From positions 62,001-126,000 of the forward strand of contig JAERMQ010000007.1 in NCBI GenBank assembly GCA_016844745.1: DNA of 64,000 nucleotides, read 5' to 3'. A program made the position numbers and the translations under genes. Source of the DNA: Ignavibacteria bacterium. GTDB taxonomy: Bacteria; Bacteroidota; Ignavibacteria; Kapaibacteriales; UBA2268. Positions 8,756-57,444 of this stretch are shown here, in pieces. Under the pieces are notes generated by a model. That model was not told the DNA's origin, did no database searches, and was given only the letters and a program-made list of their open reading frames with translations. Each line of letters starts with the position of its first letter. Position 1 is the stretch's first letter.

Positions 8756-8908
8756 ATCCATTGCCAACAAATGAATACTTGATTCGAAGATTAATTGTCA
8801 TTCGTAAGCGAAGTGAAGAATCCAGAAGCCGCATTGGGACTGGATTCTTCGCTCCTCTCCTAATGAACACTTTATAATAAAATGAGGTTTAAGTTAATGA
8901 AATAATTG

Positions 8909-9000
8909 AATTTACCACCCCCTACCCCCTCCTAAAATAGGAGGGGATTTTAAATTTTTTTTCCCCTCCTATTTTAGGAGGGGGTAGGGGGTGGTAAATT
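8909..9000. repeat. Large perfect palindrome with 39-bp arms
   Basis: Arms 8909-8947 and 8962-9000 are exact reverse complements separated by a 14-base AT-rich loop. Each arm holds an inner hairpin (CTCCTaaaaTAGGAG). The C-block/inner-hairpin design resembles the palindromes at 10725-10804 and 55320-55410 with a different sequence. It lies in a gene-free stretch (8719-9214), which also holds a decayed GTCATTC-family repeat at about 8797-8860 and another near 9047-9102. Confidence 0.95.
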
Positions 9001-9214
9001 TGTTCATTTCAGTGTCAGTGAAAGCTCGCTTTTACTTTTGCCTCTGAATGACATTCTTCCATTTTTGATAATTTTCACACCGTCTCATCCGCAGGAATGA
9101 CATTTCGCTAATTTTTAAAACCATCCTATATTTATTTTGCAACTTTTTGCTCAGAAATTTGTTTATTGTTATGGTTAGGGAGAAGATTGTTCAAATTTAT
9201 TATAAGATGAGAAA

Positions 9215-10724: not shown

Positions 10725-10804
10725 AAGAACCCCTCCCTAACCCTCCCCGAAGGGGAGGGAATCTAAGTCCCCTCCCCTTCGGGGAGGGTTAGGGAGGGGT
10801 TCTT
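10725..10804. repeat. GC-rich palindrome, 35-bp arms (CCCTCCCTAACCCTCCCC family)
   Basis: Perfect 35-bp arms (10725-10759 and 10770-10804) each contain the inner hairpin CTCCCCgaaGGGGAG. The same arm sequence is found at 55320-55410 and 55921-56021, on either side of a DUF559 endonuclease gene. Here it is an orphan copy ending six bases before the stop-codon end of the minus-strand multi-haem gene, and could also serve as its terminator. Confidence 0.95.
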
Positions 10805-28559: not shown

Positions 28560-28590
28560 TAATTCAAAGTTTCTATAATTTATAGATTTA

Positions 28591-28634
28591 CACACCCCTT
28601 AATTCCTCTCTCGAGAGGGGAATTAAGGGGTGTG
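28591..28634. repeat. 44-bp palindrome (CACACCCCTTAATTCC family)
   Basis: CACACCCCTTAATTCC...GGAATTAAGGGGTGTG with an inner CTCTCGAGAG, imperfect by one pair. It lies 32 bases after the DUF35 stop and could terminate the HMG-CoA cassette. A decayed copy is at 49271-49313. Confidence 0.9.
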
Positions 28635-28647
28635 TTATTATTATGGT

Positions 28648-31168: not shown

Positions 31169-31541
31169 TAAATTCTTCTAATTTTTCATCATCACCATAC
31201 CAATTCTGACTTAAATCATCCCATTCAGGGTTCATGGATTCAATCAAATCAATTTTTTTAGTTCTTAACTATCCCTTCAATTGTTTCTCGCGTGAAATAG
31301 CGCTCCTAATGTTAATTGTTGATTCAAACCAAACTAATTTTGTAATATTATATTTTTCTGTAAAACCTTTAAGTAGTTTATTCTTATGTTCATAGACCCT
31401 TCTTTTCAAATCATTTGTAACTCCAATATAAAGAGTTTTAGTGATACTGCTCATAATATAAACGTAGTAGCTATTTTCGAGAAGATTATTCACTTCGTTC
31501 AGTTTTTTAGGTTCTGCTCTTAATGTAAGTGAAGAAGCCAT
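31158..31541 (-). pseudogene. GIY-YIG endonuclease gene with in-frame amber codon
   Basis: The first part reads ...YYVYIMSSITKTLYIGVTNDLKRRVYEHKNK, the YIG core of single-domain GIY-YIG (UPF0213-like) nucleases, to EKQLKG at 31272. A TAG at 31269-31271 interrupts it, yet the same frame continues for 36 codons as LRTKKIDLIESMNPEWDDLSQNWY and so on, the normal C-terminus of the family. The interrupted position is usually Trp (TGG), so one G-to-A change explains the break. The first ~20 codons from 31541 come from a dispersed repeat. A more natural start would be the GTG in front of NNLLENS (~31494-31496). Confidence 0.8.
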
Positions 31542-52549: not shown

Positions 52550-55288
52550 ATGAAAACAATTTTTACCTTTACACTTACACTATTTATTTGTTTGCAAATA
52601 GCAGCAACAGCACAAGAACGCGAATTGCCTGAATGGTTAGGCGCCCAGAATAGCGGCAAAGAATACTGGTTCACTGTTCCACCCAGTTTTGCTGATGAAT
52701 CAGGCGGAGGACAAAACTTTATTAAGGTTTATGTAACATCCCCAGTGAAAACTCTTGTAACCTTAGAAATCCTTGGAAAAAATAAAAAATTTACCAAAAT
52801 GTCGGTTGCAAACGATGTAATTGGGTTTGACTTAATACCTGGAGATGCTCAAACTTTTGAAAAAACAGGAAAAGCAGCAGAAGTTGAAGAAAAAAATTAT
52901 CCCGGATACGGTATCCATGTTTATGCAGAGGATTTATTGGTTGTTTACGTTTTAGTCCGTTTCAGGGCAACAAGCGACGGATTTTTGGCTGTGCCTGTAT
53001 CATCGCTTGGAAAAGAATATATTTGTGGTTCATACAATACCGACCCAATGTTTTCGGCAGTTTGGGGTTATCACCTACCTTCGATGTGCGGCATAACGGC
53101 TGCTTATAACAACACAAGAATGACATTTACAATGGGAGGCAATCCGGCAACGACTACGGCAGGAGGATTAAAACCCGGACAAAGTACAACAATAACAATG
53201 AATAAAGGTGATGTTTTCATGGTTTCATCAAAGGGAGACTATGGAGACTTAGCCGGTAGTAAAATAGTTGCAGATAAACCGGTATCAGTAGTATCCGGTA
53301 ACCAATGCGACAATATTCCAGCCGGAAATCAATGGTGCGATTATTGCGTTGAGATGGAATTGCCATTATTTACCTGGGGAAATGATTATCATGTCCCATC
53401 GGTACCGGGAAGAAAATGGCCCTCCTTGATGCGTGTATTTGCAAAAGAACCAAATACCATTGTATTTAGGGATGGAAAACAAATTGCTACTTTAAAAAAC
53501 GCCGGAGGAATAATTGGTGAAGCATATTATGAAGGCAGAATAACACCAATGGACGAAGCACAAAAGCCCGTCGTAATTTCCGGCGATAAACCCATTGGAG
53601 TGATGGTCTATAATTGCGGAGTTCAAGAAGACGGCTACCCACTTCCGAACAGCGACCCATTCTGGATGGTGATGACTCCATTATCTCAATACCAGAAGGG
53701 AATTACATTTTGTACACCTGCCACACGTGGTGGTTTGGGTTTCGAGGAAAATTATTTAAACCTGGTTTTCCAAACCGATGCAAATTTAAAGATGCCTGAT
53801 GATGTTATGATTGCTGAGGTAAAAGGGGGAAAATACTCATGGATGCCTGTTAATCAAAAATATTCCGGAATAGATAAACAATTTTCTTATGATTTTAATG
53901 ATAAACACTATGCAGTTCGAACACTGATATTGCCACGCGAAGGAACATTTAAAATCAAGGCGAGCCAGCCTTTTGCCGCATATTCATTTGGCTACGACTG
54001 GTGCGATTCTTATGGTTATCCGACTGCCGGCGCATTTAAAAAGAACGACCCTGATGATAAAGAATGTCCGAGAGTGGCTTATACAAAAAACCAGGATGAG
54101 AGCGTTAATGGTACGGTTCAGGATAAAAATTTATCCTTAATTTTAATGCTTACTGATGATAGTTATAATTATAATCTGACTTATCCCGAATTTATTGCCG
54201 GGGATGATATTAATACTACATGGAAGCTCGATAAAATTGATACAAAAGATAGCGCCCGCGCCGTTATTGCATTTGCCGACCGCTGCGGGTACGATACAAT
54301 AATTACAATTGGAGCAATGCCGAGACCCAATATAGATGTGCCGAAAATTGTATTGAGCGCTAATGAACTGCAATTCCAGGAAGTAATATTGACTTTAAAT
54401 AAAGCCCTGACTTTAACGGCAAGCAATTTGGGGAGTGATATTTTACAAATTACATCTGCAAGAATAACAGATGATGTTAACAAATCCTTTAATTTATCCG
54501 GCATGAACTACCCATTGAATATAGATATTAACGGGAAAGCTACATTCTACATTTCTTTCATTCCGACTGTATTGGGCAAATCTACCGCTACCCTTGAATT
54601 ATTAACTAATGACCCAGCAAATAAAACTATCAGAATTCCTTTAAGCGGTATTGGTCTGCCTCCATCTGCCCTGATAACAACAAACATCACAAAAATTTTA
54701 TTTGGCAATGTTAAATTGGAACAATCAGGTTATCAAAATTTTCAATTTATAAATTCCGGGAATACTGACTTAGTGATAAATAAAGTAATTATTACTGATG
54801 ACGCTAATAATGCATTCAGTATTGTTTCGCCGCCAACATTCCACCCTTATTTAACAAAGGGTGCGAGTGAAAATTTAGTAATAAGATTTATACCATATCA
54901 AAGACAACCTTATAAGGCAAATCTTCATATTGAAACGAATGCAGCTAACAATCCTATCCTTGATATTCCGATTGAAGGTAATGGCGGTGATATAAATGAT
55001 GTTCCAATTGTTATTCCTGATAATAATATTTCGTTATCAGTTAAGCCGAATCCTATTATCAAGACTGCTACTATTGAATATAAAGTAAATTTTGAACGCG
55101 CTGATTTGATGAAAATTACGGTTGTGGATATAACGGGCAAGGAAGTGGTTTTGATATTGAATCAAATAGTTGAACCGGGAGAAAGCGCTGTTCAATTCAA
55201 TGCAGAAGGACTTGCTGCTGGTAAGTATTTTGTAATAGCGAATTTTGGAAATGAAGCGGCAAGGCTGCCGGTAGTGATTGAGAAGTAA
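52550..55288 (+). CDS. T9SS-secreted protein with IgGFc-binding-like N-terminal domain and choice-of-anchor repeats
   Basis: The 912-residue protein has a signal peptide (1-23). A long region (~35-500) follows, resembling IgGFc-binding-type N-terminal domains (GKEYWFTVPPSF, VYVTSPVKTL, VYAEDLLVVYVLVRF, and disulphide-suggestive Cys). Two Hydin/ASPM-like beta-sandwich units (~590-800; AKIVLSANELQFQEV-like and TKILFGNVKLEQSGYQNF) precede a type A sorting domain (VKPNPIIKTATIEYKV ... GKYFVIANFGNEAARLPVVI). Such proteins are generally surface adhesins or gliding-related. IgG binding itself is not implied. Confidence 0.78.
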   Translation: MKTIFTFTLTLFICLQIAATAQERELPEWLGAQNSGKEYWFTVPPSFADESGGGQNFIKVYVTSPVKTLVTLEILGKNKKFTKMSVANDVIGFDLIPGDAQTFEKTGKAAEVEEKNYPGYGIHVYAEDLLVVYVLVRFRATSDGFLAVPVSSLGKEYICGSYNTDPMFSAVWGYHLPSMCGITAAYNNTRMTFTMGGNPATTTAGGLKPGQSTTITMNKGDVFMVSSKGDYGDLAGSKIVADKPVSVVSGNQCDNIPAGNQWCDYCVEMELPLFTWGNDYHVPSVPGRKWPSLMRVFAKEPNTIVFRDGKQIATLKNAGGIIGEAYYEGRITPMDEAQKPVVISGDKPIGVMVYNCGVQEDGYPLPNSDPFWMVMTPLSQYQKGITFCTPATRGGLGFEENYLNLVFQTDANLKMPDDVMIAEVKGGKYSWMPVNQKYSGIDKQFSYDFNDKHYAVRTLILPREGTFKIKASQPFAAYSFGYDWCDSYGYPTAGAFKKNDPDDKECPRVAYTKNQDESVNGTVQDKNLSLILMLTDDSYNYNLTYPEFIAGDDINTTWKLDKIDTKDSARAVIAFADRCGYDTIITIGAMPRPNIDVPKIVLSANELQFQEVILTLNKALTLTASNLGSDILQITSARITDDVNKSFNLSGMNYPLNIDINGKATFYISFIPTVLGKSTATLELLTNDPANKTIRIPLSGIGLPPSALITTNITKILFGNVKLEQSGYQNFQFINSGNTDLVINKVIITDDANNAFSIVSPPTFHPYLTKGASENLVIRFIPYQRQPYKANLHIETNAANNPILDIPIEGNGGDINDVPIVIPDNNISLSVKPNPIIKTATIEYKVNFERADLMKITVVDITGKEVVLILNQIVEPGESAVQFNAEGLAAGKYFVIANFGNEAARLPVVIEK

Positions 55289-55319
55289 AAAAATAACACT
55301 TTGCCAATCTATGAGGAAA

Positions 55320-55410
55320 AACCCCTCCCTAACCCTCCCCGAAGGGGAGGGAATTGAAAAATAAGATAGTTACTTATTCCCTCCCCTTCGGGGAGGGTTA
55401 GGGAGGGGTT
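55320..55410. repeat. GC-rich palindrome, 35-bp arms, upstream of DUF559 gene
   Basis: Arms 55320-55354 and 55376-55410 are exact complements and hold the inner CTCCCCgaaGGGGAG hairpin. Arms are almost identical to those at 10725-10804. The element begins 31 bases after the T9SS gene stop. Confidence 0.95.
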
Positions 55411-55528
55411 ATTCCGGCTGAATTTAGTAGACATTCTTAAATTTCAAAAGAATATTTGTGAGTGAATTTAGATTAGGTCAAGGTGAGTTCTTTCGGCAAT
55501 TAGTAAATTTAATGAAAAAGAATTAACA

Positions 55529-55936
55529 ATGAGATACATTTTAACTGACAAAAAAACATGGCATAAGTTAAAAGATTTTGTTAAAGAAAACAGAAAAGAG
55601 CAAACCTATGCCGAACAAATCATCTGGGAAAATTTAAGAAAAAAACAATTAGGAGTTAGATTTAGAAGACAACATGCGATTTACCAATTTATTGTAGATT
55701 TTATCTGTATTGAAAAGAAATTAATTATTGAAATTGATGGTGATTCACATTCTGATAAACAAGACTACGACCATGAAAGAGAAAGGATTCTGGAAGGAAT
55801 GGGTTTCAAAGTTTTAAGATTCACAAATGAAGAAGTTACTGGAAATGGCAATAAAGTAATCGAAATGATTAAGGAAAATTTGAAGGACATTAGCTTTGAG
55901 AACTCTTTTAACTCTGAGGGAATAACCCCTCCCTAA
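55529..55936 (+). CDS. DUF559 (Vsr-like) endonuclease-type protein
   Basis: The 135-residue protein shows the DUF559 pattern: AEQIIWENLRKKQLGVRFRRQHAIYQFIVDFICIEKKLIIEIDGDSH, with the F-R-R-Q core and the PD-(D/E)XK-like D...E.DG.H. The family is related to very-short-patch repair nucleases, and its biological role is not established. Its last codons (ITPP and the stop) are the first bases of a GC-rich palindrome at 55921. An intact palindrome of the same family ends 118 bases before the start. The body is AT-rich. Confidence 0.88.
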   Translation: MRYILTDKKTWHKLKDFVKENRKEQTYAEQIIWENLRKKQLGVRFRRQHAIYQFIVDFICIEKKLIIEIDGDSHSDKQDYDHERERILEGMGFKVLRFTNEEVTGNGNKVIEMIKENLKDISFENSFNSEGITPP

Positions 55937-56021
55937 CCCTCCCCGAAGGGGAGGGAATTTTTTACTTTTATTCTACTTCTACTTCTATGTTCTATTTCTA
56001 TAACCGGGTTAGGGAGGGGTT
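55921..56021. repeat. GC-rich palindrome overlapping the DUF559 3' end, right arm shortened
   Basis: The left arm (55921-55959, ACCCCTCCCTAACCCTCCCC plus inner hairpin) is complete. The right arm retains only GGGTTAGGGAGGGGTT (56006-56021). Between them is an unrelated 45-base T/C-rich run (TTTTACTTTTATTCTACTTC...). This looks like a rearranged or partly replaced copy. Confidence 0.88.
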
Positions 56022-56109
56022 TTTCTTTCAAGGTTAAATGATATTTTTTTGAAAGGTTTTTTCTTTTAATTTGACTTAGTAGTAATTGAAAAAAATAAGT
56101 GTAGTAAGT

Positions 56110-57444
56110 ATGAAGAAGTTTTTAATTTTGACGGCAGTAATTGGGCTGCTGCTTTCGCTCAATGCCTGGTCACAGCCAAAATATAAAGATATGGTTTGGC
56201 TGACCCCGACGGATGATATTAAAGCTTTCTGTTTCTCGCCGGACAGCAAGTTTATAGCTTGCGCCGAAGGAAATTATATCAACATTCTCGATGTTGCAAC
56301 CGGGCAAAGCATAAAAAAACTTTGGCTAAGCGACAATCATTCTGAAAATATCGATTTTACAGATGTCAAATGGTCAAATGACGGACGTTATATAATAGCA
56401 CCTAATCAGAAAAACGTCCAGGTCTGGGATGCTGCCACTTTCGATACGCTCAATTTTTTAGTGGACAATGCCACCCCAGGAAAGCAAATCGGAATTTCAA
56501 ATGATTGTAAATATTTAGTTGCAAGTACCAGAACAAGCGAAATAAAGGTATGGAATCTTCAAACCGGAAAATTAATAGCCAAGAAAAGGGTATTGCCACC
56601 CAAAGATTATACTAATCCTACTATTCAAGAAATGGCTCTGAGCCCAACAGGAGATTTTATTGTTATTAGAGGTTTTTTTGAGCCGAGTACAAATCCAAAA
56701 GCATCTACAATTTTATTTGATAGTGTTTATAAAACCAATAATTTAAATATGTTACCCATAAGTTTTCCTGGAAAAGCTTATGTATTTTCATCAACAGGAA
56801 ATTATTTATCAGAATTTTTGTTTAAAAGAGATAATAGCACTATCATCGATACATGTATAAGAATAACTGAATTGAAAAATAATAAAATTATAAAAAATTT
56901 TTCAATGAAAATTGGGGAATATTTTAGATTTCCTGAATTTTCTTATGATGATAAATATTTTCTTACAATTAAAAGAAATGGATTTGAATTAGTTGTTTAT
57001 AACATTCAATCATGGGATTCGGTTTATTCGTATATACTGAATAATGAACGAAAGTTTTATTTATTGAAATCATCACCAAATGGTAAATATATTGCTGCTA
57101 AATGCTCGGATTATTCATTAGGAGCCATTATTCTATTAAAATCTTTTTGGGGCAACACACTTGTAAATGAACAAAATAACAGTAATACAGAAATTTTGAA
57201 CTACTACCCGAATCCAACGTTATCTCAAATTGATATTGAATATAACATTGGGCTAAGCGGAAATGTATTGATTTATATAAGCAATTTAAATGGGGAAAAG
57301 ATTGTTACCTTACTTGATGAATATATCTCACAAGGCAAACACACAATAACTTGGAATATAGCAGGAGTAAGTTCCGGCGCTTATTTCATCAACTTAATTG
57401 CTGACGGAAAAAGTTTAAGCAAGAATATTATTGTTATAAAATAA
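56110..57444 (+). CDS. T9SS-secreted WD40-like beta-propeller protein
   Basis: Starting at the ATG 56110 (an upstream TTG would add eight residues), the protein begins with the signal peptide MKKFLILTAVIGLLLSLNAWSQ. WD40-like blades follow over ~30-340 (DDIKAFCFSPDSKFIACAEGN, WSNDGRYIIAPNQKNVQVWDA, ISNDCKYLVASTRTSEIKVWNL). The type A sorting domain (NYYPNPTLSQIDIEYNI ... GAYFINLIADGKSLSKNI) ends it. Function is unknown; propellers usually mediate protein binding. The next small frame begins 10 bases downstream. Confidence 0.82.
   Translation: MKKFLILTAVIGLLLSLNAWSQPKYKDMVWLTPTDDIKAFCFSPDSKFIACAEGNYINILDVATGQSIKKLWLSDNHSENIDFTDVKWSNDGRYIIAPNQKNVQVWDAATFDTLNFLVDNATPGKQIGISNDCKYLVASTRTSEIKVWNLQTGKLIAKKRVLPPKDYTNPTIQEMALSPTGDFIVIRGFFEPSTNPKASTILFDSVYKTNNLNMLPISFPGKAYVFSSTGNYLSEFLFKRDNSTIIDTCIRITELKNNKIIKNFSMKIGEYFRFPEFSYDDKYFLTIKRNGFELVVYNIQSWDSVYSYILNNERKFYLLKSSPNGKYIAAKCSDYSLGAIILLKSFWGNTLVNEQNNSNTEILNYYPNPTLSQIDIEYNIGLSGNVLIYISNLNGEKIVTLLDEYISQGKHTITWNIAGVSSGAYFINLIADGKSLSKNIIVIK

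Follow-up and report, generated by a model that had tools for sequence, protein, structure and literature searches.

A small DUF559 nuclease gene between two triplex-capable repeats in an Ignavibacteria genome, a probable mobile cassette of the homing type

Introduction

Palindromic repeats of the BoxC/PIT/TM class, known since the 1990s, are present in hundreds of genomes. Like the repeats described here, they consist of a Y arm, an R arm, a short linker and an antiparallel purine third strand, and are found as inverted pairs, at unstable loci and in many phyla (PMC4666352). Folding of TM-ECO oligonucleotides into triplexes was demonstrated in vitro, BoxC/PIT/TM repeats reportedly form no stable triplexes in vivo, and no mobility gene was recognised near BoxC/PIT/TM-ECO repeats in the 2015 study of Holder et al. 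(PMC4666352). The repeats considered in the present work differ in being tied to DUF559 nucleases and, whereas the repeats of this class in E. coli K-12 are reported to be always intergenic, many of them lie in frame inside open reading frames. DUF559 is a large family for which, to our knowledge, no function has been agreed upon. A literature search limited to open-licence papers yielded none that connects DUF559 or YcjD with palindromes.

Several other described systems resemble the locus in part. In REP/RAYT elements, as here, palindromic repeats enclose a small nuclease gene; non-autonomous copies are dispersed, inverted dimers occur, repeats are occasionally present inside genes and the stop codon is supplied by the repeat (PMC3733652). 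The DUF559 enzyme is however an unrelated PD-(D/E)XK protein (PF04480) and not an HUH Y1 transposase, and its repeat carries a mirror-image G/C-rich third strand instead of a GTAG/CGTC tag. EDxHD homing endonucleases such as I-Bth0305I have a homologous catalytic domain, insert into conserved genes and are known from occupied and empty alleles; in contrast, the DUF559 cassette contains neither intron nor intein, its short protein has no DNA-binding extensions, and it displays palindromes at both ends, with further copies of the repeat dispersed elsewhere. Rickettsia palindromic elements (RPE) and intragenic REPs are likewise in-frame palindromes read through in the host protein, but have no nuclease gene between two copies; no DUF559-like nuclease is named in the 2013 REP survey, which includes RPE-4 and RPE-6 (PMC3733652). 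Finally, the Vsr mismatch endonuclease (1vsr) has a similar fold, whereas the short DUF559 genes seen here reside in palindrome cassettes and display no evident link to a cytosine methyltransferase.

Materials and methods

All coordinates refer to the window, i.e. the whole stretch of 64,000 nt analysed here, from contig JAERMQ010000007.1 of an Ignavibacteria bacterium (GCA_016844745.1). Genome-wide copy counts in this organism's own genome originate from pattern searches. The wider survey comprised 80 DUF559 loci, with flanks of up to 10 kb, from 84,980 species genomes covering Bacteroidota, Pseudomonadota, Nitrospirota, Acidobacteriota, Cyanobacteria, Chloroflexota, Verrucomicrobiota and CPR. 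These loci were found with patterns derived from palindrome-bearing members, and the figures given below apply to the short standalone clade and not to all DUF559 domains. A triplex motif was defined as a hairpin with an exact mirror third strand.

Results and discussion

The features of the locus and its relatives within the window are collected in Table 1. The arms of the left palindrome measure 40 nt with a complementarity of 98%, and the top hairpin score of the region 55001-56400 is 97, compared to 27 for the highest of 100 shuffled sequences, which rules out a chance palindrome. A known structured RNA was rejected as well, Rfam giving only sub-threshold matches to miRNA-type hairpins, as expected of any long hairpin. 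An earlier note, made from the letters alone, had described one palindrome before the DUF559 gene and another overlapping its end, an arrangement borne out by the sequence, the hairpin score and the PF04480 match. It had also attributed the last codons of the gene to palindrome bases: the codons ATA ACC CCT CCC TAA (I T P P stop) are indeed part of the right palindrome, and the stop codon at 55934-55936 is the TAA linker of the right-hand repeat. The orphan palindrome of the same family that it reported elsewhere in the window was confirmed, and the non-autonomous copies that it supposed to lie elsewhere do exist, about 34 copies of the element being dispersed across the 5.0-Mb genome.

Table 1. 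Positions of the cassette components and of related palindromes in the window
Feature	Position	Strand	Description
Left palindrome	55320-55410		two inverted intrastrand-triplex units
Left palindrome, unit 1			third strand 55322-55329, linker TAA 55330-55332, hairpin 55333-55351
Left palindrome, unit 2			hairpin 55379-55397, linker TTA 55398-55400, third strand 55401-55408
DUF559 nuclease gene	55529-55936	+	135 aa; PF04480, E=1.2e-35
Right palindrome	55924-56021		hairpin 1 kept; hairpin 2 replaced by another genomic repeat, TTCTACTTCTACTTCTATGTTCTATTTCTATAACC
Right palindrome, intact unit 1	55924-55955		third strand 55926-55933, linker/stop 55934-55936, hairpin 55937-55955
Dispersed repeat TTCTACTTCTACTTCTATGTTCTATTTCTATAACC	55956-56005		stands in for hairpin 2 of the right palindrome
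Right palindrome, unit 2 remnant	56006-56021		linker and third strand, GGGTTAGGGAGGGGTT
Orphan copy	10728-10801		non-autonomous copy of the left-palindrome element
Orphan palindrome, ACCACCCCCTACCCCCTCC family	8898-9011		same family flanks DUF559 genes L004 and L005 of the own genome

The repeat at 55956-56005 (GGTTATAGAAGTAGAACATAGAAGTAGAAGTAGAA; L038-L067) has 49 matches in the genome; it substitutes one hairpin in many DUF559-type palindromes and is also found directly 3' of several tRNA genes. A further palindrome, ACACACCCCTTAATTCCTCTCTCGAGAGGGGAATTAAGGGGTGTGT at 28590-28635, looks like an additional family of similar style.

Each half of the window palindrome constitutes a perfect 8-triad intrastrand-triplex motif, a property that had escaped the earlier note. 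The unit is composed of the Y arm CCCTCCCC, the R arm GGGGAGGG, the linker TTA and the third strand GGGAGGGG. The C-rich tag adjoining each hairpin mirrors the stem arm, an A being faced by A or T, which is what an antiparallel purine-motif third strand requires. Upon comparison of the third strand with the purine arm, mirror order wins in 140 hairpins and direct order in 41 (p=7e-14). The TTA linker is also that of the E. coli TM-ECO type A (PMC4666352). The succession that defines the class (Y arm, loop, R arm, linker, antiparallel purine third strand) is complete and, on the basis of the mirror third strand, the eight triads and the linker, the window repeats are assigned by sequence to the BoxC/PIT/TM class of intrastrand-triplex repeats. 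A single-stranded repeat, with its hairpin and mirror third strand, would be able to form an intrastrand triplex; this designates a folding potential only, as folding into a triplex has not been shown for the window repeat.

The association of such repeats with DUF559 genes extends well beyond this locus. Seven DUF559 matches were found in the own genome, which holds DUF559 genes and repeats of several different types, and for five of them (L001-L005) C-rich/G-rich palindromes are present on both sides of the gene or next to it. All full-length short DUF559 genes of this genome are accompanied by palindromes, of differing families. No palindromes adjoin the remaining two matches, which are a 281-aa variant (L006) and a Vsr-like gene (L007), the only one located beside a methyltransferase. 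Nearly all the DUF559 loci read in 60 relatives share the palindrome-flanked layout. Among the window's relatives, polypyrimidine stems were found at 24 of 32 DUF559 loci and triplex motifs at 26 of 32, compared to none of either at 29 GIY-YIG loci. Over the 80 surveyed loci, triplex motifs amount to 5.28/kb within 150 bp of the gene and to 0.07/kb at 2-10 kb, a local enrichment of about 75-fold over background that is observed on both sides and across phyla. A motif within 300 bp is present at 69/80 loci and in 2/59 control windows, and the enrichment of palindromes near DUF559 genes on which the earlier note had staked its proposal is strongly supported. Polypyrimidine stems follow the same course, with 5.4/kb upstream and 7.1/kb downstream within 100 bp, and 0.05-0.08/kb beyond 2 kb. 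C-terminal prolines derived from C-rich palindromes, which the earlier note had mentioned for other DUF559 proteins, were indeed seen in other loci. Four additional DUF559 loci came independently from records classed as plasmids and carry such repeats as well, in Neisseria gonorrhoeae (the source of the solved DUF559 structure 3hrl), Klebsiella, Picosynechococcus and Sphingomonas. Ordinary intergenic terminators, or chance palindromes unlinked to the gene, would be compatible with the intergenic position of many solo copies and with the convergent T/A flanks, which could act in termination, but hardly with the 75-fold local enrichment, the identity of left and right repeats or their location inside open reading frames. 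The element ends also lack a U-run and PIT elements display no terminator or promoter activity (PMC4666352), leaving this explanation with next to no credit.

In profile searches, the protein encoded by the window gene matched 3hrl with E=5e-32 and I-Bth0305I, a homing endonuclease, with E=4e-4. Its predicted structure (pLDDT 84.9) was matched by Foldseek to 3hrl with a TM of 0.92, to I-Bth0305I (PDB 3r3p; E=1e-4) with a TM of 0.67 and to Vsr (1vsr) with a TM of 0.40. The conserved DUF559 residues are R47, Q48, D57, E68, D70 and G71, the catalytic-type positions being invariant or almost so. The window protein satisfies the description of an EDxHD/Vsr-like catalytic domain with conserved residues and is, judging from the modelled fold and these residues, a PD-(D/E)XK enzyme resembling Vsr/EDxHD homing endonucleases, for which cleavage is inferred. 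The near invariance of the catalytic-type residues indicates a nuclease under selection for activity, in the absence of any biochemical data.

In two groups of organisms, a given site could be compared with and without its insertion. At one gene pair of Hymenobacter, the various species present a gap of 35-84 bp, a cassette of 540-610 bp or, in one case, a solo hairpin. The cassette is bounded by terminal inverted repeats of about 75 bp, in which two hairpins are contained. The sequence of hairpin 2 is swapped wholesale between copies with pairing kept: 99% of the cells are paired, 57 changes are two-sided, and the covariation score is 0.728, against 0.191 in shuffles (0/500). In the hrpA gene of Gallionellaceae, most species have nothing inserted at the codon site RFSKHF|SGAPVLQVSGRTYP, several have an in-frame solo repeat there and at least 7 an in-frame repeat-DUF559-repeat. 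Empty sites, for which the earlier note had proposed to look, exist in both groups; ancient gain followed by loss could also produce these patterns. MetH, HsdM, HsdR and MmeI likewise harbor in-frame cassettes, the host domains being preserved before and after the insertion. The direct observations comprise one and the same site found empty, with a solo repeat or with a full cassette, as well as insertion in frame, the fold and a conserved folding potential. In-frame DUF559 cassettes often reside in restriction-modification genes (HsdM, HsdR, MmeI-like, type IIG), as at L071, L076, L176, L160, L152, L161, L003 and L084.

The sequences bordering the insertions are also informative. In the own genome, the host sequences bordering solo copies to the left and right are complementary to each other in a site-specific manner (0.65 versus 0.47 expected; 0/2000 permutations). 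The right flank in Hymenobacter looks like the left flank in inverted orientation, the latter being single in the empty species. IS and MITE elements combine terminal inverted repeats with direct target-site duplications; in Hymenobacter, the flank repeats outside the terminal inverted repeats of about 75 bp are inverted, not direct. The inverted flanks arise either from the insertion itself, which would duplicate a short stretch in inverted orientation, or from template switching at a later stage, which would lengthen the palindrome; both origins imply that the long hairpin forms in the cell. The enzyme might instead belong to the host, removing folded triplex/hairpin DNA or mismatches, in which case the repeats at its own gene would be regulatory or protective. 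The Vsr-like fold is in keeping with such a role, and the DUF559 protein VsrA of Caulobacter causes SOS in cells without cytosine methyltransferase (PMC12907096). In-frame cassettes in unrelated genes, several DUF559/repeat types per genome, patchy presence and empty sites are however signatures of mobile DNA, and the short DUF559 genes seen here are tied to methyltransferases only as insertion targets. A host repair or structure-processing enzyme is consequently considered improbable.

If the nuclease and the repeat belong together, as in the mobile cassette that we favor, their types can be compared locus by locus. The median similarity of the left and right flanks is 29.5 within a locus and 12.5 between different loci, and the best match of a flank is its own-locus partner in 35/72 cases. 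Protein and repeat similarities over 90 loci give a Spearman coefficient of 0.37, the permuted maximum being 0.13. The closest protein to that of the window (75% identical) is encoded at L073 in genome G009, which belongs to another genus, and its palindrome is the same. In a census of the window repeat in 60 relatives, 64 half-copies were counted in the own genome, 18 in G009, 16 half-copies or near-matches in three other genomes (2 to 8 each) and none in the remaining 55; G009, with its 75%-identical nuclease, is thereby the only other genome in which the repeat is plentiful. Association, specificity, co-variation of protein and repeat and the existence of non-autonomous copies are direct observations. 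Two DUF559 genes of Pedobacter with equal scores (L195, L204; G069:C1:1044274, 1044925) are located 651 bp apart and appear to result from a tandem duplication of the cassette.

A known member of the repeat class adjoins a DUF559 gene in E. coli K-12, where a BoxC copy (L333 2706-2743) lies beside fabI and next to ycjD. Besides this BoxC copy at one of its sides, the K-12 ycjD gene (L333 2700-3310) has a perfect hairpin of different sequence, TCACCTCATTCTGACAA...TTGTCAGAATGAGGTGA, just ahead of its start. The 38-nt BoxC repeat is present in 5,395 of 5,426 complete E. coli genomes, with a median of 16 copies, and ycjD in 3,366. BoxC copies number 1-3 in B2-like strains and 14-27 in many others; O157:H7, devoid of ycjD, has 12. 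The relation of BoxC copy number to ycjD presence is suggestive only, being confounded with phylogroup. No clean empty ycjD site could be obtained in E. coli, as the genomes lacking ycjD carry the eef efflux operon at this position, a finding also made elsewhere (PMC12817139). DUF559 is the likely mobility partner of repeats such as BoxC, whose origin was previously unexplained. At the tktB-ypfG intergenic spot of E. coli (L340-L345), REP is found in some strains and BoxC in others, a polymorphism that shows strain-level turnover without showing the order of arrival.

The census and the E. coli data also bear on the possibility that DUF559 is mere cargo. Triplex palindromes would then spread by other means (replication slippage, template switching, recombination or another transposase) and the gene, caught between two copies, would profit from their mobility. 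Palindromes far outnumber genes in the own genome (about 34 per gene), some ycjD-less E. coli genomes retain BoxC copies, and quasi-palindrome correction could likewise produce the inverted flanks of solo copies. On the other side, protein and repeat types co-vary and no other gene family was found tied to the repeat class, RAYTs having their own palindromes and GIY-YIG genes none of this class. We regard the cargo explanation as unlikely, without being able to dismiss it.

The feature is best described as a selfish mobile cassette of the homing type, in which a small PD-(D/E)XK nuclease gene is carried between two triplex-capable repeats. This is held to be probable; cleavage, binding and transposition are inferred, and so is the role of the palindrome as nuclease substrate, no cutting or copying of the repeat having been shown. 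The nuclease would recognise the folded repeat, the unoccupied target or both, and would nick or cut there, probably on single strands exposed at replication. Repair could then transfer a copy of the repeat to the target in a homing-like manner, either alone or together with the gene. Solo repeats, those of BoxC in E. coli included, would represent non-autonomous copies or remnants.

The parallel with RAYT/REP drawn in the earlier note holds for the mode of operation, with its flanked gene and non-autonomous copies, and fails for membership; RAYTs were rejected as owners of the repeat, since those of the same genome carry other palindromes. In its mode of operation the cassette also resembles a free-standing homing endonuclease, although without the intron or intein of the classic ones. 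The RAYT-type genes (L177-L182) are accompanied by ATCCCTTTAGGGAT, ATCGCTACGCGAT and AACAATGGAGCATGCTCCATTGTT, one of these genes lying within an open frame of 1258 aa. Small GIY-YIG genes have flanking palindromes of yet another class (GTCATTCTGAACGAAGTGAAGAATC, with variants including GTCATACCGACGCAGGTCGG) at window 31254-31469 (L184, a copy with an internal stop), at L183 and L186, and in relatives (L294, L300-L302, L305, L306), and possibly form a parallel nuclease/palindrome system.

Conclusion

With a confidence only slightly better than even, standalone DUF559 genes and triplex repeats may be seen as one class of mobile elements, present in much of the bacterial domain and homing into tolerant sites, even in frame in conserved enzymes, with triplex/hairpin DNA as the recognition signal. 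In E. coli, BoxC would represent the non-autonomous form of this class and YcjD the enzyme; the pairing of GIY-YIG genes with GTCATTCTGA-type palindromes, like that of RAYTs with REPs, would illustrate the same principle independently. The link between DUF559 and the repeats gives each a partner, the repeats having had no known mobility gene and the family no agreed job. The question can be addressed in E. coli K-12, where ycjD adjoins BoxC, the carriage of ycjD by only part of the E. coli genomes offering a natural comparison. If confirmed, these cassettes would provide a nuclease system acting on, or at least travelling with, triplex-forming DNA, and an example of a nuclease domain repeatedly inserted in frame into conserved enzymes without intein or intron.
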